DNA of 64,000 nucleotides from SAR202 cluster bacterium (lineage in GTDB: Bacteria > Chloroflexota > Dehalococcoidia > Lucifugimonadales > UBA2962). The translations under genes and the position numbers were made by a program. Positions 50,331 through 64,000 of this stretch are shown one piece after another. The notes below the pieces were generated by a model. It was not told the DNA's origin, did not search any database, and saw nothing but the letters and a program-made list of their open reading frames with translations. The number at the start of each line of letters is the position of its first letter. The stretch's first letter is position 1. The stretch is from the NCBI GenBank assembly GCA_022447925.1, contig JAKUTS010000003.1, positions 1 through 64,000 on the forward strand, given 5' to 3'.

Positions 50331-50360
50331 TTGACATGCCGGTAAAGCCGTTGCTAGCAT
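50331..50360 (+). promoter_or_regulatory. Possible glmU promoter
   Basis: TTGACA (50331-50336), 18 bases, TAGCAT (50355-50360), in the 253-base gap before glmU. Perfect -35 and four of six -10 bases. It would give a 5' leader of about 110 bases that includes the inverted repeat at 50401-50442. Confidence 0.4.
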
Positions 50361-50400
50361 TCTATCGATGAATGTGTCTAATCACATTAATTTCTCTTTA

Positions 50401-50442
50401 AAAGTAAACTTAAGCGCATTACGCGCTGGAGATATTTACTTT
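50401..50442 (+). repeat. Nested inverted repeat in glmU leader
   Basis: AAAGTAAA (50401-50408) pairs with TTTACTTT (50435-50442); inside lies GCGC (50414-50417) pairing with GCGC (50423-50426). Eight plus four base pairs with a poorly paired middle. No T-run follows, so not a terminator; a leader structure or protein site ending 37 bases before the glmU ATG. It does not resemble the glmS ribozyme. Confidence 0.4.
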
Positions 50443-53171: not shown

Positions 53172-54074
53172 TTATTTTTCTGCAACAACAACTAATGGCC
53201 AAGTCGCTATAGACCCTTTGTCTCCAATTGCAATAGCAGTGTATACGCCAGCGGACAAATCAATAATCGGTTCCAATATTATGGTTCCACTGGAGTCGGC
53301 ATCACGAGCAACCAGGAACTCAGGTCCGCCAACTATTCCGAGAGTTACACGTTCATTTGATTCGAATCCAGAACCCCAAAAGCTATTACGAGTCCCGCTC
53401 ACGGCTACAGTTGCTACTATCGAAGCTTTCAAGTCGTCTTTTAAGGCTTCAAAGTTCGCTTCTGTATCATCAGCTTTATCGGTGACAACAATTAGTGGAT
53501 CTATGCTGGATTCAATAGATAATGGTGCGTTTGCTATGCTTCCACCAGATCCCTTTGCACTAACCGTGTATACCTCATCCAGCTTAATTCTAGATAGAAC
53601 CCGTGGGTCCGCGTCTATATTTTCAATCAAAACCTTAAAAGCTCCACTTAAGCTAGTTACAGTATCCGATAGAACAAGTTGTAGGGAATCATCAATTTGA
53701 AGTGAGATTATTACATTTTCGTTAGGGTTAAAGCCAGAGCCAAAAATCTCTAAACTATCATTTAACGTAGTTAAATTTGGCCGAATTTCTGTTTCTATCA
53801 AAATTGAGGCTCGAAGTTGCGACTCTACAGTTTCGGAAACACCTTGTTCACCTGGCGGTCCAGGAAGACCCGGTAAACCTCTGTTGCCTGGTGGTCCAGC
53901 TGGGCCCGGGTCTCCTTGTTGTCCTTGTTCACCTTCTGGCCCGGTTGGCCCATCAACGCCGATTGGACCGGCAGGACCGGTGCATGAAATAAGTAGCAGC
54001 AATGAAATACATGTTAGTAAAACTAAAAACAACTTAAATAAATGAATGACCCTGGAATTTAGTTTTAATTTCAT
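53172..54074 (-). CDS. Collagen-like lipoprotein with two repeated domains
   Basis: 300 residues from ATG 54074; GAGG just upstream supports this over the GTG at 54089. Lipoprotein signal ends at LLISC, followed at once by about 16 Gly-X-Y triplets with many Pro at X, a stiff collagen-type stalk on the outer face. Two copies of a beta-sandwich-like domain follow, each with a GSGF...NE start (GSGFNPNEN and GSGFESNER) and a YT...G...A-x-x-PL end. The protein at 54226 has one copy. Likely a surface stalk holding binding domains; the ligand is unknown. Confidence 0.85.
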
Positions 54075-54151
54075 GTTAATTCGCCTCACACTATAAATTG
54101 TGTGGCTTTAAGGGATGTTATTGGAAGGGGAGTTTAGGTTAAGTTTTTAAT

Positions 54152-54205
54152 ATTAATAAGAAAAGGCCCCTGAATATTGTGATTCAGGGGCCTTTTCTTA
54201 TTAAT
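54152..54205. terminator. Strong bidirectional intrinsic terminator
   Basis: A perfect 24-base inverted repeat (54152-54175 and 54182-54205) with loop ATTGTG. The stem has a GC core (GGCCCCTGA) flanked by AAGAAAA and TTTTCTT, so either strand gives a hairpin followed by U-rich RNA. It lies 20 bases after the stop of the collagen-like gene at 54226 and before its paralogue, and separates their transcripts. Confidence 0.9.
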
Positions 54206-54225
54206 TAACTAGTTTAGCGGATTTA

Positions 54226-54786
54226 CTATTTACTACCTACTAGTAAAGGCGCAGTTGCTGTGGTCTTCTTTGAACCATTTGCCCAAAGAGTGTAAAGACC
54301 GTCGGCTAGTGCACTTACATCAATGTCCGCTTGAAATGATCCATCTACGTTAGCAAATTGACTACCAAGTACAACATCGTCCGCCATTAAAGTTATGGCC
54401 TCACCAAGCTTAAATCCGGAACCATACACAGTAGCTGTGCCACTGGTGGCTTGTGTAGCTACTACACTGGCTACGCCGTTAACAGCGTCTCGTCCGTCTC
54501 GTCCATCTTCACCCGCAGGTCCAGCTGGGCCTGAAGGACCATCTGATCCTGGAGATCCTGGAGGTCCGGATGCACCTCTGGCTCCTTGTTTACCTTGTAC
54601 GCCTTGCATACCTTGGCTACCTGAAGATCCGTCACTGCCATCTATGCCTGCGGTTCCTTGTGAACCAGGTGCGCCGGCAGGACCTTGAGGTCCGGCAGGA
54701 CCGGTACAAGCCACTAAGGCTATTATTGCTAGACTGGAAACTATCAGGGCTAGGGTAGTGCCCTTACCACTAATGAGCTTTTTCAT
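54226..54786 (-). CDS. Collagen-like lipoprotein with one C-terminal domain
   Basis: 186 residues. Lipoprotein signal with lipobox LVAC, then directly about 24 Gly-X-Y triplets (GPAGPQGPAGAPGSQG...), then one copy of the GSGF-start, YTLWANGS-end domain shared with the neighbour at 53172. The collagen part is more GC-rich than its surroundings because Gly and Pro codons are. Transcription probably ends at the 54152-54205 terminator. Likely a surface protein on a collagen-type stalk. Confidence 0.87.
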   Translation of the reverse strand: MKKLISGKGTTLALIVSSLAIIALVACTGPAGPQGPAGAPGSQGTAGIDGSDGSSGSQGMQGVQGKQGARGASGPPGSPGSDGPSGPAGPAGEDGRDGRDAVNGVASVVATQATSGTATVYGSGFKLGEAITLMADDVVLGSQFANVDGSFQADIDVSALADGLYTLWANGSKKTTATAPLLVGSK

Positions 54787-57225: not shown

Positions 57226-57885
57226 CTACCTATCAGAAATATCCCATTTTTTTCCAGTGACCATGAATATCGTTCTTTCTGATATATTTGTAGCCCGATC
57301 TGCTATTCTTTCAAGATCATGAGCTACCCATAATAAATAGGTAGCACGTTGGATATTCTTTGGATTTTCAATCATCATCAGCACCAACTCACGATATATT
57401 TGATTGTATAGAGCATCTACATCATCATCCATCAATATAACCTGTTTAGCTCCTTCTACGTCTCTTGATACAAGAGTTTCTAAACTTAATCGGAGCATGT
57501 TGCTCGCTAAATCTCCTATTCTTGGTATATCAATTAATGGTTTAAGCAGAGCCTCTTCTCCGATTCTTGAACTGATTTTGGCTATTCCTTCTGCATAATC
57601 CCCCATTCTTTCTAACTCGCTCGAAACTAGTAAAAGAGTCACTATTGTTCGAAGATCTCCAGCAAGAGGTTGCTGAGTTGCCATTAAATCAATGCAAGTC
57701 TCCTCTATTTCCACAGCTTTATCGTCAATTGCATCATCATCTGTAATCACTTCTTGCGAGAGTTTGAGATCACGGGTTTTCAACGCATCTAGTGATAAAA
57801 GTACCGATTTCTGAACCATGCTACCTAACGATAAAAGTTCGTCCATTAAGGTGTTAAGTTCTCTATCAAAATCTGTTCTAGCCAT
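57226..57885 (-). CDS. phoU: Phosphate transport regulator PhoU
   Basis: 219 residues of two three-helix PhoU repeats, each with the E-x-x-D metal-binding pattern (VEIEETCIDLMATQQPLAGDLRTI and the C-terminal LERIADRATNISE). PhoU links PstB to the PhoR kinase so that the regulon is off when phosphate is plentiful. It lies 25 bases after pstB in the pst operon, ending the transcript. Confidence 0.95.
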   Translation of the reverse strand: MARTDFDRELNTLMDELLSLGSMVQKSVLLSLDALKTRDLKLSQEVITDDDAIDDKAVEIEETCIDLMATQQPLAGDLRTIVTLLLVSSELERMGDYAEGIAKISSRIGEEALLKPLIDIPRIGDLASNMLRLSLETLVSRDVEGAKQVILMDDDVDALYNQIYRELVLMMIENPKNIQRATYLLWVAHDLERIADRATNISERTIFMVTGKKWDISDR

Positions 57886-57910: not shown

Positions 57911-58717
57911 TTAACTAAATCGACCTGTTATGTATGCTTCTGTTCTTTCTTCTGTTGGGTTAGTAAAGATTTGTTGTGTGTCTCCAGTTTCTACCAGATA
58001 TCCGGCACGATCATCTCCGACCATGAGGAAAGCTGTTTCATCAGATACTCTTGCTGCCTGTTGCATGTTATGAGTGACGATAATTATTGTATATTTTGAA
58101 ATCAATTCGCGAATTAGCTCTTCGATTGCTAGAGTAGCAATTGGATCTAGTGCCGAACATGGCTCATCCATCAGAACAATGTCAGGTTCAATAGCGAGAG
58201 CTCTAGCTATACATAATCGTTGTTGCTGACCACCGGATAAAGTTAGACCACTATCTTTTAATCGATCTTTAACCTCGTCCCATAGGGCAGCCTGTTTTAG
58301 TGATTTTTCCACAGCTTCTTCAATATCACCTTGATATCCATTGATCCTAAGTCCAAAAGCAACGTTATCATATATTGATTTTGGAAAAGGATTTGGTTTC
58401 TGGAACACCATTCCAATAGAGGATCGTATTTCTGTTGCGTCAACTCCTGAGGAATATAGGTCTATGCCGTTATAAACAACTTCACCTTCCACTGAGGCAG
58501 ATAATACAAGATCATTCATTCGATTGAAGCATCTTAATAAAGTGCTTTTGCCGCAGCCTGATGGACCTATCAAAGATAAAACCTTATTCTTTTTGACGCT
58601 CAAGTTAACGTCTTTTACTGCTCTAAAATTGCCGTAATAAACGTTCAAATTCCGAGCACTTATAATGGTGTCTTCTTTGGATGGTTTTAGATTTGTATTT
58701 GTTATTTCATTTTTCAT
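57911..58717 (-). CDS. pstB: Phosphate ABC importer ATPase PstB
   Basis: 268 residues. Walker [10 protein letters not shown], signature [16 protein letters not shown], Walker [14 protein letters not shown], and the His-switch [13 protein letters not shown]; the acidic [12 protein letters not shown] near 80 is typical of PstB. Powers phosphate uptake through PstA and PstC, and relays phosphate status to PhoU. Starts 2 bases after the pstA stop. Confidence 0.97.
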
Positions 58718-58719
58718 AT

Positions 58720-59610
58720 TTATTCTTCCGATTGTTTTTGGTATCGATTTCTTAAATATATTGCTATTGAGTTCATTCCAAGCAGTATAAGTAATAAAAT
58801 GATTATGCCTGCCGCGGCCAGACCTCGAAATTCATCTTGAGGTCGAGACACCCAGTTGAAAATTTGAATTGGCATTACAGTGAATCTAGATAATGGGTTA
58901 GTTGGAATGAATGTTAGGTAAACTAAGGCGCTAATAGCGATAATGGGAGCCGCCTCACCGATTGCCCTCGACAATGCTAAAATCACTCCGGTTAAAATGC
59001 TTGGCATAGCTGATGGTAGTACGACGCTTTTTTGAGTTTCCCATTTAGTTGCCCCTAGGGCATATGAAGCTTGACGATATGAATCTGGCACAGCCTTAAT
59101 TGCTTCTCGAGATGCTAGTATAACGATTGGTAGTACTAATAAGGCTAGAGTTAGAGCGCCAGCTAAAACTGCTCGTCCGATTGACATCCATTGTACAAAC
59201 AGCGCAAGTCCAAGAAGGCCATACACAATAGACGGAACGCCAGCCAAATTAGATATATTTATTTCGATAATTTGAGTGAACCAGTTTTTAGGAGAATATT
59301 CTTCTAAATATACTGCTGCACCTATTCCAATTGGCACGGTGAAAACTCCCGTTAATGCTATAGTCCAAATTGTTCCAAAAATCGCTGATTTCATTCCCGC
59401 TAATTCTGGATGTCTGGAAGGGAAATTAGTGATGAAATGCCAGCTTAACCAGTCCACACCATCAAATAGGATTCTAATTAATAAGACTAGCAGGCCGGCA
59501 ATTCCAATCAAAACACATGATAGCAACAAGAAATATATGATTTGGCCAAATCTTTTGCGCCTTTCCAGGTTTGAATTAAATTGGGATTGTTCAATTGGAA
59601 TCTTATTCAT
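58720..59610 (-). CDS. pstA: Phosphate ABC importer permease PstA
   Basis: 296 residues, six membrane helices, with the permease EAA loop ([17 protein letters not shown]...) and [15 protein letters not shown] typical of PstA. It overlaps pstC by 8 bases, which implies translational coupling and equal synthesis of the two permeases. Confidence 0.95.
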
Positions 59611-60535
59611 ATTTTTGTTGCCATTTCTTCACTACCAAACTGCCAATTAAATTCATTATCAAAGTAATACAAAACAGTAAAAGTCCAACTGCAAATATTG
59701 TGTTATATTCTAAAGATCCAAATGGCGCCTCCCCGAGGCTAAGTTGCACAATATACGCGGTCATGGTTTGGATACTCTCTATAGGATTAGCTGTTAATCT
59801 AGGAGTTGCTCCAGCCGCGATTGTTACTAACATGGTTTCACCGATTGCTCTTGAGATAGCTAATATGAAAGAAGCTATTATTCCGGATAATGCTGCGGGA
59901 ACTACTACACGGAGTGCAACTTCGAATTTTGTTGCTCCAAGTGCATAAGCCCCGTTTCGTAGAGATCTAGGAACAGACATCATCGCATCTTCGCTCAATG
60001 ACGAGACCATGGGTATGATCATGATTCCCATCACTAAGCCTGCGCTAAGCGCATTAAATACGATCATATTAGGAATGATTTCTTGAAGATATGGAGTTAC
60101 AAAGGTTAGGGCGAAGTACCCATATACGATTGTAGGTACTCCTGCTAATATTTCTAAAATTGGCTTAACTATGCGCCGCACACGATCGGCTGCATATTCA
60201 GATAAATAGATCGCCGCTCCAAGCCCGACTGGAGCAGCAAAAAGTATTGCGATGACTGAAACCAACATCGTTCCACCGACAAGCGGTAAAACTCCGTGAG
60301 CTCTAGGTTTTAAAATTGGAGACCATCGGGTACCTGTAAGGAATTCCCAAAGTGAAACTTCCATAAAGAAGTTCCATCCTTGAATGACCAAGCTAACAAC
60401 TATACCAATAGTTGTAGCGATAGAAACTAGGGCGCATGCTAGCAAGATCCATTTGATAGCTTTCCCTTCTATATAGGATCTAGGGCTGCGTTTATAAAGT
60501 TCTGATCTAAGGCCGATGTTTTTATTTTTATTCAA
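59603..60535 (-). CDS. pstC: Phosphate ABC importer permease PstC
   Basis: 310 residues, six membrane helices, with a cytoplasmic N-terminus (RSPRSYIEG...) and EAA loop [19 protein letters not shown]. First gene of the operon read from the Pho-box array. No pstS precedes it: the upstream gene is phoR and the spacer is 183 bases, so the phosphate-binding protein must be encoded elsewhere or replaced. Confidence 0.95.
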
Positions 60536-60647
60536 CTAATTTAACTAGTTCAGATGATCATAATTTTTTAAAAATGTACAAGTGTATGTTTTGAATATCG
60601 TAAAAATTAATTGACTATCTTTTTGTTTCATCTGACTATCGTTAGAG

Positions 60648-60710
60648 ACTATATCTACTTTCTATGTAGTCGTTTAATAATGAATTAAATTTTTGTTAAC
60701 AGAGTGTTAA
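60648..60710 (-). promoter_or_regulatory. Four-repeat Pho-box array and pst promoter
   Basis: Read on the minus strand, four hexamers start exactly every 11 bases: TTAACA (60710-60705), TTAACA (60699-60694), TTAATT (60688-60683) and TTAAAC (60677-60672). This is the tandem PhoP-box layout known from Bacillus (TTAACA-type repeats, 5-base spacers). A -10-like TATAGT follows at 60653-60648, 18 bases on, so the array would occupy the -30 to -70 region of a pstC promoter, bound by phosphorylated PhoB/PhoP. Repeats are seen directly; regulation is inferred. Confidence 0.75.
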
Positions 60711-60718
60711 AAACCTAT

Positions 60719-62104
60719 TTAATTTCTAGGTAGTTTGAAAGAAAATCTAGACCCTGAGCCCAGTTTACTTTCAACCGATAGAGATCCTTTATGCGCCATT
60801 ACAATATGTTTGGCTATTGCTAAGCCTAGACCGGTTCCTGTTCCTGTTCTTGAAGGATCAACCTTGTAAAATCTTTCAAAGACATGTTTTTGATCTTCCA
60901 AGTCAATTCCAGGTCCATCATCCGCAACCGTAACCTCAACCAGGCCTTCAATTTGCGATGTTGTAATAATTATCGAACCGTTATCAGGTGTAAATCTAAT
61001 AGCATTATCCAAAAGATTTATAATTACCTGAATTATCTTCCTCTTATCTGCTAAAACATCTAAATCAACACAGGGATTAGGGCAAGATACAGCAATATGT
61101 TTTTCTTTGGCTTTGTGCTCTAGACTCCTTGCCACATTAACAATTAAGTCGTTTATATTTATTGTTTCTATGTTCATATGAGCGCTACCGCTCTCTAAAG
61201 TGGACAACTCTAAGAGTTCACTAACAAGTTGATTCATTCGGTCTATATCTGTATTTATTCTTGATAGATAATCTTTAGATATATCTCTGTCATCAATTGC
61301 GCCACCTATAAGGGTCTCGATTAAAGCTTTTACAGATGCAAGCGGACTCCGAAGTTCGTGGCTAACATTACTTACAAATTCTCGGCGAGTGTTTTCGATA
61401 TTTTGATATTCTGTAATATTCCTTAAAGTGACTAGAACACCTTCAGAGCCCAGGTGTTTTATAGGTGTGGCTATAGTATTCACAATAATTCTGTCTGGTT
61501 GAAGCAAGATATCTTGACTAAGAGTTTCGGCATGCCTAATTGTGTTCAAAATCATGGTTCGTAATTCATGATCCCATATATGCCCCAGAGATTCATAATT
61601 CTTTGACTTAGCTAATTTGCTAGGTTCGTCTAAACCAACCCCGAGCAATTTTTGTGCTGCAGGATTCATTAAAATTATTTTGGCTTCAGAGTCAGCAACT
61701 ATGACTCCATCATTCATTGTTTCTAGTACTGCCGATAGCGTGAATCTTTCACTTTCTAATTCTCGTAAATTATTCCTCATGGTTTTAGCCATTACATTAA
61801 ATGAACTAGCAAAATTTTTTCTATCTTCATCTCCTTGAGTTGGAAATTGATAGTCTAAATTTCCTCCGGCTATCGAGCGCGCACCTTCAGAAAAATCGTT
61901 AATAATTGTTGATGTTTTAGTTCGAATTATTACGCCGATTATTGAGGATGAAATAATGATTATGATACCGGAAATAATTGTTGCTAAAACTACGTGTGCA
62001 TCTTTAGAGTTGATTATGTAAGCAACTAGACCAACCAAAATGATTGTGATCAAGATGGTATATGAAACAATCCACTGCCATTGTAAAAATTTAGGTATAT
62101 TCAC
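60719..62104 (-). CDS. phoR: Sensor histidine kinase PhoR-like
   Basis: 461 residues. Two N-terminal membrane helices (about 11-30 and 36-58) with almost no outer loop, then a HAMP-like linker, a PAS domain (about 125-240), HisKA with the phospho-His in VSNVSHELRSPLAS, and HATPase_c (DNAIRFTPDNG, DDGPGIDL, GTGLGLAI). Senses phosphate status, most likely through the Pst/PhoU complex rather than an outside ligand, given the missing outer domain. Overlaps phoB by 4 bases. Confidence 0.93.
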   Translation of the reverse strand: MNIPKFLQWQWIVSYTILITIILVGLVAYIINSKDAHVVLATIISGIIIIISSSIIGVIIRTKTSTIINDFSEGARSIAGGNLDYQFPTQGDEDRKNFASSFNVMAKTMRNNLRELESERFTLSAVLETMNDGVIVADSEAKIILMNPAAQKLLGVGLDEPSKLAKSKNYESLGHIWDHELRTMILNTIRHAETLSQDILLQPDRIIVNTIATPIKHLGSEGVLVTLRNITEYQNIENTRREFVSNVSHELRSPLASVKALIETLIGGAIDDRDISKDYLSRINTDIDRMNQLVSELLELSTLESGSAHMNIETININDLIVNVARSLEHKAKEKHIAVSCPNPCVDLDVLADKRKIIQVIINLLDNAIRFTPDNGSIIITTSQIEGLVEVTVADDGPGIDLEDQKHVFERFYKVDPSRTGTGTGLGLAIAKHIVMAHKGSLSVESKLGSGSRFSFKLPRN

Positions 62105-62814
62105 CCGTCAAACCGATATCCTATGCCTCTCACAGTAACTATTCTCAGAGGTTTTTCTGGGTTCGTTTCTAATTTTTGTCTGAGCCAACTTATATGGACA
62201 TCTACTGTTCGAGTGTCTCCAATGTAATCATGGCCCCATAAAGCCTCAAGAATTTGGAGCCTTGTTAAGGCCTTTCCTTTGTTACGCATAAAAAACGTTA
62301 GTAAATTGAACTCCCTTGGACGTAAATTGAGTTGAACATCGTTTAGTTTGGCTGTGTAGCTGTATGTATCGACTACTAAGTTTCCAAAATTTAAAATGTC
62401 GGTGGCGTTTGCTTTTGTGGTGCCATTTTTAGAGCTCGAATGACGTAATTGTACTTTTATTCTTGCTATTAATTCACGCATGCTAAAAGGTTTCGTGATG
62501 TAATCATCTGCACCAAGTTCAAGACCTAATACCTTGTCGATTTCTTCCGTTTTGGCTGTAAGCATTATTATTGGGACATTATTTTCTTCTCTGATCCTTT
62601 TGCATACTGTGAGCCCATCCATTCCTGGAAGCATTATGTCGAGTAAAATCAGATCTGGGCTATGATTTTGGGCTAGGGTTAAAGCTAGATCTCCATCATC
62701 TGCCAGAATAAGACGGTAGTTTTCTTTTTCAAGGCTATATCTAAGAGCTTCTTGAATATTTGGATCGTCTTCAACCACTAGGATAGTCTTTGGATCTTTT
62801 TCGCGATCACTCAT
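62101..62814 (-). CDS. phoB: Response regulator PhoB/PhoP-like
   Basis: 237 residues. Receiver domain with phospho-acceptor Asp in LILLDIMLPG, VVEDDPN acidic pocket and TAKTEEIDKVLGLELGADDYITKPF, then an OmpR-type winged-helix DNA-binding domain (LRPREFNLLTFFMRNKGKALTR, RTVDVHISWLRQKLE). Probably the protein that binds the 60648-60710 array. Its start overlaps the end of the FtsX-type permease gene by 8 bases, so phoB and phoR are co-transcribed with that gene. Confidence 0.95.
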   Translation of the reverse strand: MSDREKDPKTILVVEDDPNIQEALRYSLEKENYRLILADDGDLALTLAQNHSPDLILLDIMLPGMDGLTVCKRIREENNVPIIMLTAKTEEIDKVLGLELGADDYITKPFSMRELIARIKVQLRHSSSKNGTTKANATDILNFGNLVVDTYSYTAKLNDVQLNLRPREFNLLTFFMRNKGKALTRLQILEALWGHDYIGDTRTVDVHISWLRQKLETNPEKPLRIVTVRGIGYRFDG

Positions 62815-64000
62815 ACCTTAATGCCTCAGCAGGTGACACCTCTGATGCTTGAAGCGCAGGAATTAAAGTTGTTAATAATGACATTAAGTAAGCTCCAATC
62901 CCAATCAAAGCGAACTTTACCCAGGGGATGATTGTTTTTATGTCTGGGTCTGCTGAGTCTCTTATGTCAGCCATTACATTGATTCCCGTAACTATTCCCA
63001 AAATTATTCCGATCAATATGCCCATTATACCTATAAAAGAAGATTCTCCAATAAACGTCAGTAATACGTTGCGTTTTGAAAAACCTATTGCCCGCATTAC
63101 ACCGATTGCATGTCTTCTTTCTACTACAGCTCTAGCACTAATAACGCCTAAGGATACAATTCCCACAACTAGACCAAGCAACATGAATCCAGTTAAAAGA
63201 TCAAAGAAAGATCTTTGTTGGCTTTGCAGCTCTATCAATGTTTCTTCTAAATCGAGAGTTTGAATGGCATGTTCAAATAATCCTGACTCTATTGCTACAG
63301 ACGGATCAGGGTAGCCTTCTTCAACTCTGAACAAATATCTAGTTGCATCTGAATTTATTCCAGTTTTATCAAATAGGAATTCTTGGCTTGTAAATATGCC
63401 GCTTGGTAATATAGGGCCATTATCCGTGAATTGATCGAGCACGCCTATAACTGTTACTTCATATTCGCTGCCACTTTCTAAATCCCTGATAGTCACTTTG
63501 ACTTCGTTCATAAAATCATTTTCAATAAATAATTCTTCAACATCTAGAGTTAGGTTGTCGTTTTCAGAATCAAAAGCAAAGCTATTTTTTGTTGGTATCA
63601 TTCCTGAATCTACGACTGCAAGTCCAGGGTTATTTTTTAAATCTTCCCACACAGCTTTTGAATCAAATCCATTTTCAGTAATATATTTTTCCGTTGCTAA
63701 ACTTATTCTAAATTTATTAGATTCCATGAAACCATTATCTACACCAGTGATGTTTGTAGTTATAAAGTCGGTTTGATTCGAATCTACTACCAAACCTTCT
63801 GTGTCCCTAACGGTTCTGAAAGTACTGACCTCCGTGATAAACGAAAGTTCTTCGGTGCTATCGATTTTCTCCTCGATATTTTTAATTGGGTTTAAATCAC
63901 TTAAAACATATCCCACTGTGTCGTATCCGCCGGCAAACCTTTCTCTATCATTTAAAAGGTTATTAAAACCTTCAATTACCATAGAGTTAACCAGAACTGC
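62807..64000 (-). CDS. FtsX/MacB-type ABC permease, 5' end outside window
   Basis: C-terminal 397 residues of a permease of the FtsX/MacB type; the frame stays open to the right window edge, so the N-terminus is missing and no start is assigned. An outer domain (about the first 250 visible residues) is followed by three membrane helices with the FtsX signature ERRHAIGVMRAIGFSKRNV between the first two. Such proteins move lipids, antimicrobials or signal to cell-wall enzymes. Being fused by an 8-base overlap to phoB is unusual for this family. Confidence 0.85.
   Translation of the reverse strand, partial: AVLVNSMVIEGFNNLLNDRERFAGGYDTVGYVLSDLNPIKNIEEKIDSTEELSFITEVSTFRTVRDTEGLVVDSNQTDFITTNITGVDNGFMESNKFRISLATEKYITENGFDSKAVWEDLKNNPGLAVVDSGMIPTKNSFAFDSENDNLTLDVEELFIENDFMNEVKVTIRDLESGSEYEVTVIGVLDQFTDNGPILPSGIFTSQEFLFDKTGINSDATRYLFRVEEGYPDPSVAIESGLFEHAIQTLDLEETLIELQSQQRSFFDLLTGFMLLGLVVGIVSLGVISARAVVERRHAIGVMRAIGFSKRNVLLTFIGESSFIGIMGILIGIILGIVTGINVMADIRDSADPDIKTIIPWVKFALIGIGAYLMSLLTTLIPALQASEVSPAEALRYE

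Follow-up and report, generated by a model that had tools for sequence, protein, structure and literature searches.

Introduction

The pstS promoters of Firmicutes are activated by PhoP, and similar 11-base repeats are used by the related regulators WalR and MtrA. PHO boxes are defined by their shape, namely 11-base direct repeats to which the phosphorylated regulator binds head-to-tail (PMC4415409). In Synechocystis, the Pho boxes of SphR are made of CTTAACCT octamers separated by 3-base linkers (PMC1906773), and SenX3-RegX3 is the phosphate pair of mycobacteria (PMC4415409). The DNA analysed here, a stretch of 64,000 nucleotides referred to as the window, was assigned to SAR202 (Dehalococcoidia, Chloroflexota) because, among named organisms, those nearest to it are SAR202 cluster bacterium OSU_TB35, with 97% identity in PstC, and Chloroflexi bacterium NAT137, with 92%. 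SAR202 bacteria have, to our knowledge, not been cultured, and very little of their gene regulation has been described. In this study, an array of hexamers upstream of pstC was compared with the known phosphate operators, and very probably acts as a Pho box, i.e., a tandem operator through which the neighboring PhoB-type regulator would activate pst.

The pst locus and its upstream array

The operon has the order pstC-pstA-pstB-phoU, and the genes upstream of pstC, all co-directional, are phoR, phoB, a 1010-aa FtsX-type permease and an ABC ATPase. The features of the locus are as follows.

57226..57885, minus strand: phoU (TIGR02135, 215 bits, over cut-off)
57911..58717, minus strand: pstB (TIGR00972, 388 bits, over cut-off)
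58720..59610, minus strand: pstA (TIGR00974, 278 bits, over cut-off)
59603..60535, minus strand: pstC, first gene of the operon under the array (TIGR02138, 278 bits, over cut-off)
60646..60651, minus strand: probable -10, TAGTCT, 20 bases after hexamer 4 (TANNNT rule in relatives and in the pstS and phoBR promoters of the genus)
60648..60653, minus strand: alternative -10, TATAGT, 18 bases after hexamer 4 (5/6 match to TATAAT; 5/6 positions invariant)
60661..60666, minus strand: degenerate fifth slot, CATAGA (register analysis; 3/6 positions invariant in five genus genomes)
60672..60677, minus strand: hexamer 4, TTAAAC (sequence; 5/6 invariant in the same five)
60683..60688, minus strand: hexamer 3, TTAATT (sequence; 5/6 invariant in the same five)
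60694..60699, minus strand: hexamer 2, TTAACA (sequence; 6/6 invariant in the same five)
60705..60710, minus strand: hexamer 1, TTAACA (sequence; 6/6 invariant in the same five)
60719..62104, minus strand: PhoR/PnpS-type sensor histidine kinase (HisKA, HATPase_c, PAS; best NCBIfam match PnpS, 321 bits, cut-off of 400 not reached)
62101..62814, minus strand: PhoB-type response regulator (Response_reg and Trans_reg_C; best solved relative RegX3, 2oqr)
62807..64000, on to contig position 65839, minus strand: FtsX-type ABC permease, 1010 aa (PF02687, ORF map; co-directional, upstream of phoB)

A first-pass annotation of this DNA had claimed four TTAA-core hexamers at exact 11-base spacing upstream of pstC, and both the coordinates and the sequence were confirmed. 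The hexamers occupy 60710-60672 of the minus strand in exact 11-base steps, with one hexamer to each turn of the helix, between phoR (end 60719) and pstC (start 60535); a Pho box comprises at least two direct repeats of an 11-base unit, and four copies were found here. That annotation made no mention of the degenerate fifth slot, CATAGA, which lies 9 bases before the -10 at a position where many relatives carry a hexamer, or of the second -10-like element, TAGTCT, at 20 bases. Since the TTAA core is palindromic, the orientation of the hexamers is only weakly determined; expectation-maximization (EM) placed just 15 of 44 Dehalococcoidia arrays on the plus strand.

The intergenic region upstream of pst is A+T-rich and contains seven TTAA, which would favor the view that the array is simply TTAA recurring by chance in such DNA. 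However, when this region was subjected to 20,000 dinucleotide shuffles, four TTAA in 11-base register did not occur in any of them, and three occurred in 0.125%. Furthermore, the arrays are kept across the genus and are found in relatives with pstS regions of 60-64% G+C. Chance origin was thus ruled out by the shuffles and the conservation tests, its likelihood being vanishingly small. The window was also scanned on both strands for similarity to four TTAACA copies (maximum score 24) at periods of 7-15. The top score, 20/24, was obtained at period 11 only, other periods reaching at most 19, and it was reached nowhere in the window but at the pstC array, counting its opposite-strand reading and a one-slot shift.

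In the window's genome, pstS is absent from the pst locus and is located alone on another contig, beside a recN-like gene; in most relatives it lies immediately before pstC. On G000:C4 (L131 2482-3435), a secreted protein with tandem SHD-type repeats (NHGDASHADVWSNHSDDQSHS...) is encoded directly downstream of pstS, the contig ending inside the gene. The ABC ATPase and the 1010-aa FtsX-type permease precede phoB-phoR, co-directionally, in 5/5 genus genomes (window 62807-64000, on to contig position 66584), and their genes sit downstream of an array-bearing promoter. Elsewhere in the window, positions 53172-54786 of the minus strand hold two lipoprotein genes whose products have collagen-like Gly-X-Y repeats and, after these, a C-terminal domain; a gene resembling them is found downstream of phoU in G002 (L180 14122-14685). 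Finally, a 43-base intergenic block, TTAAAGAGAAATTAATGTGATTAGACACATTCATCGATAGAAT (50359-50401, minus strand), lies between divergent genes and is near-identical in four genus genomes; it is probably an ordinary promoter.

Conservation and predicted targets within the genus

Across five genomes of the genus, 22 of the 24 hexamer positions upstream of pstC are invariant, and the leader downstream of them is invariant at 32/110 (29%). The first-pass annotation had named beforehand the loss of spacing and hexamers upstream of pst in related genomes as the observation that would tell against it. Both are conserved, in 5/5 pstC and 4/4 pstS promoters of the genus, and the pattern was recovered de novo before pstS in other Dehalococcoidia.

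The five genomes were then searched with the exact seed pattern TTAA-N7-TTAA-N7-TTAA, which occurred at 14 loci, 12 of them promoters of pstC (in five genomes), pstS (in all four genomes that have pstS) or the ABC/phoBR operon (in three). Before the phoBR operon, the array of G004 is weak, and in G002 none is evident. The window's own genome has the pattern at just three loci, namely pstC, the unlinked pstS, and the ABC-transporter/phoB/phoR operon. The proposal that the array can serve as a seed for the phosphate regulon was therefore borne out for the exact three-TTAA pattern, which picks these promoters alone in that genome. Thus, the array is placed before pst and other phosphate genes and is common to their promoters. 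Looser patterns were not specific: a TTNACA-type pattern with 2 mismatches gave 65+72 matches genome-wide versus 61+69 in the reversed control, and the one-mismatch TTAA pattern gave 44 versus 47, i.e., no enrichment.

The remaining two exact-pattern loci are two copies of an unrelated lipoprotein promoter (G002:C40:71790 and G003:C28:18894). They were rejected as Pho boxes, being without the TTAAC bias and lying within a longer conserved block. A long conserved block, TTAAGTGGACATTAA ... TTTGATAAAGTTCA ... ATTCCACTTATGTT, precedes a lipoprotein gene in three genomes (L187 from 3017, L183 from 4791, L184 from 4895); the gene has a PstS-like signal peptide, and the contig ends just inside it in G000, G002 and G003.

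Conservation beyond the genus

The upstream regions of pstS were compared between 47 Dehalococcoidia and 40 Firmicutes (mostly Paenibacillus), the latter serving as positive control. With the TTAACA template and a score of at least 14/18, arrays were detected at period 11 in 19/47 Dehalococcoidia, as against 0-2 at the other periods of 8-14, and in 27/40 Firmicutes, as against 0-3. EM without any template, performed on 44 Dehalococcoidia pstS upstream regions, also returned a TTAA core with an 11-base period; the log-likelihood ratio there was 228, whereas no other period exceeded 94 and shuffled sequence gave 22. In the Firmicutes control (Paenibacillus and relatives), TTWACA repeats were found at period 11. 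The consensus of the Dehalococcoidia lineage has a strong TTAA and loose following positions, the fifth base being C, A or T. Individual arrays can be striking, such as TTAACG-TTAACG-TTAACA-TTAATG in L156 and, at 62% G+C, TTAACA-TTAAAC-TTAAAG-TTAAAC in L119; these two cannot be due to A+T bias. A clear array was absent in the pstS regions of 19/47 relatives.

Promoter geometry and the -10 element

A clear array was present in 28 relatives, and 13 of these had TANNNT exactly 20 bases past the third slot. Counted by phase modulo 11, TANNNT stood at phase 9 in 22 of 84 positions, and no other phase exceeded 6. In the pstS promoters of related Dehalococcoidia, the distance of TANNNT from the last hexamer is 20 (or 9) bases, and in the Firmicutes control TANNNT lies 9 bases past the array in 26/35. 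Within the genus, the phoBR operon has TATTAT or TAGTAT, and pstS has TACTTT, TAACTT or TAAATT, all at 20 bases. A fixed helical phase to a TAN3T -10, as in a Pho box, was thus seen in the relatives and in the pstC, pstS and phoBR promoters of the genus.

For pstC itself, the first-pass annotation had pointed to a -10-like TATAGT 18 bases after the array. This element is indeed present, with 18 bases separating hexamer 4 from 60653-60648, but as the actual -10, TAGTCT at 20 bases is the better candidate because it obeys the phase rule. We infer that the -10 is probably TAGTCT (60651-60646), bearing in mind that TATAGT is nearer to the sigma-70 consensus and equally conserved; TATAGTCT is invariant at 7/8 positions in the five genus genomes. 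No sigma-70 -35/-10 pair with a fair -35 was found in the region, as expected for an activator-dependent promoter.

The candidate regulator

The window was said to encode a PhoB/PhoR pair, and such a pair indeed adjoins pst, consisting of a protein with Response_reg and Trans_reg_C domains and a kinase with HisKA and HATPase_c; a PhoB-type regulator and a PhoR-type kinase are therefore both encoded in the genome. Regulator and kinase both score under the PhoB and PhoR equivalog cut-offs. Since the regulator gave 237.5 bits with the PhoB equivalog TIGR02154 (cut-off 296.2), it is a PhoB-type regulator by context and not a member of that equivalog. Among regulators with solved structure, the closest is RegX3 (2oqr, 222 bits). 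The phosphorylation aspartate, D53, is kept, and identity to E. coli PhoB over the whole protein is 99/223. Of the residues that we take to be DNA contacts in E. coli PhoB, R193, H198, R203, T217, R219 and Y223 are kept, and R201 is replaced by W in the genus.

It may be argued that the array lies before pst by accident and serves a different OmpR-family regulator, of the WalR/YycF or MtrA kind, in view of the similar 11-base repeats used by WalR and MtrA, and of the fact that the best-scoring models for the neighboring regulator itself are YycF and MtrA, albeit below cut-off. However, the arrays were found at pstS, pstC and the phoBR operon rather than at cell-wall genes, and the neighboring PhoB-type regulator is the one Trans_reg_C protein found in the genome, which is 87% complete, so that a second OmpR-type regulator could be missing from it. 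Overall, we consider such a regulator very unlikely.

Proposed mechanism

The array, its conservation, its sharing among three promoters, the fixed phase of the -10 and the single candidate regulator are results of computation; from them we infer binding of PhoB~P, activation rather than repression, and dependence on phosphate. When phosphate is scarce, PhoR would phosphorylate PhoB. Molecules of PhoB~P would line up head-to-tail on the four 11-base direct repeats, all on the same helical face and covering the -35 region. At this promoter, which has no usable -35, the bound PhoB~P would bring sigma-70 RNA polymerase to the -10, which is probably TAGTCT, and pstCAB-phoU would be transcribed. 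The same operator would act at pstS, on its separate contig, and at the ABC transporter-phoB-phoR operon, so that the PhoB/PhoR pair would also control its own synthesis.

The position of the hexamers, which overlap the -35 region, would also suit a repressor, in which case PhoB would block a basal promoter, and PhoB-family proteins do repress some genes elsewhere (PMC4415409). Nevertheless, no competing sigma-70 -35/-10 pair was seen in the region. Moreover, the geometry equals that of Firmicutes pstS promoters, for which the action of PhoP is activation. Repression is very unlikely, and activation of pst by PhoB remains the favored mechanism.

Possible further targets

The same combination of an 11-base TTAA array and TANNNT at 20 bases was seen upstream of some acr3 genes, which we take to be arsenite exporters from a reading of the sequence and not from a family search. 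Among 30 acr3 upstream regions, five had p<=0.01 against shuffles, namely those of G000 and G001 (same genus), of G015, and of two f34 genomes that share a genus, and period 11 with a gap of 20 were the best settings; most of the 30, including that of genus member G004, had no signal. In G000 and G001 the array reads ATAACT-TTAACA-TTAATT, and TATTAT follows at 20 bases; the array of G015 is TTAACA-TTAAGA-TTAATG, and that of G144 is TTAATA-TTAACA with TAATAT. G031 and relatives have two-slot versions. Tentatively, therefore, the Pho regulon of SAR202/Dehalococcoidia might extend to arsenite efflux, with acr3 of some families under direct PhoB control, although we would rate this as somewhat less probable than the contrary. 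Arsenate competes with phosphate for uptake by Pst (PMC3610870), which would make sense of such control: if true, the opening of Pst, through which arsenate also enters, would at once be coupled to a higher export of arsenite.

Arrays of TTAA at 11-base spacing, some with TANNNT at 20 bases and some without it, were noted before acr3-like genes at G000:C42:102336-102378 (L214), L262, L282 and L260; such arrays occur in several SAR202 families and are absent in others. Another promising lead is a TTAA array of five slots in G000 (G000:C20:2847-2922; L212), with TATCGT at a distance of 20 bases, upstream of a BNR-repeat (sialidase-like) gene, which is followed by a metallophosphoesterase; a search of the other four genomes of the genus did not find this BNR-repeat gene. 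An array upstream of a membrane pyrophosphatase gene (G000:C43:28683) was rejected, having no TANNNT at 20 bases.

Comparison with known Pho boxes

No earlier description of a Chloroflexota or SAR202 Pho box was found in the literature searched, the coverage of which was incomplete and included few subscription journals. By its shape, position and phase, the array is a Pho box, with putative binding of PhoB. With the mycobacterial SenX3-RegX3 system, the comparison was one of proteins, RegX3 (2oqr) being the closest solved regulator. The E. coli pho box (CTGTCAT repeats, 11-base unit) is alike in that 11-base direct repeats replace the -35, and six of the presumed DNA-contact residues of its PhoB are kept in the window's PhoB; the hexamer differs, as does R201, which is W in the SAR202 genus.

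The first-pass annotation had described a very close match to the Gram-positive PhoP box. The resemblance holds, but it is no closer than that to the cyanobacterial SphR box. Like the SAR202 array, the Bacillus/Paenibacillus box (TTWACA) has an 11-base period, two to four copies, and a -10 at 9 (or 9+11) bases past the last hexamer. Of the four pstC hexamers, two fit TTWACA exactly and two do not. In Firmicutes, however, position 3 is T or A and CA is kept at 5-6, whereas in the SAR202 lineage A is nearly fixed at 3 and positions 5-6 are loose. The SphR box shares with the SAR202 array the 11-base period, at least three tandem copies, the TTAAC core and pst operons among its targets (PMC1906773). 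Judged by its letters, the TTAAC core resembles CTTAACCT no less closely than it does the Gram-positive box. The differences are that the SAR202 positions around the core are looser (strong TTAA, fifth base C, A or T), that the phylum is another, and that the phoBR operon is also a SAR202 target, which is not general in cyanobacteria (PMC1906773).

Together, an operator that can be read from sequence, a fixed -10 phase and a single candidate regulator make the SAR202 phosphate regulon predictable from assembled genomes, and thereby testable in metatranscriptomes. The switch is thus of a known kind in a new lineage: the Chloroflexota and Firmicutes studied here have in common a TTAAC-type Pho box of 11-base period, together with its promoter geometry, and this box resembles the published cyanobacterial one.
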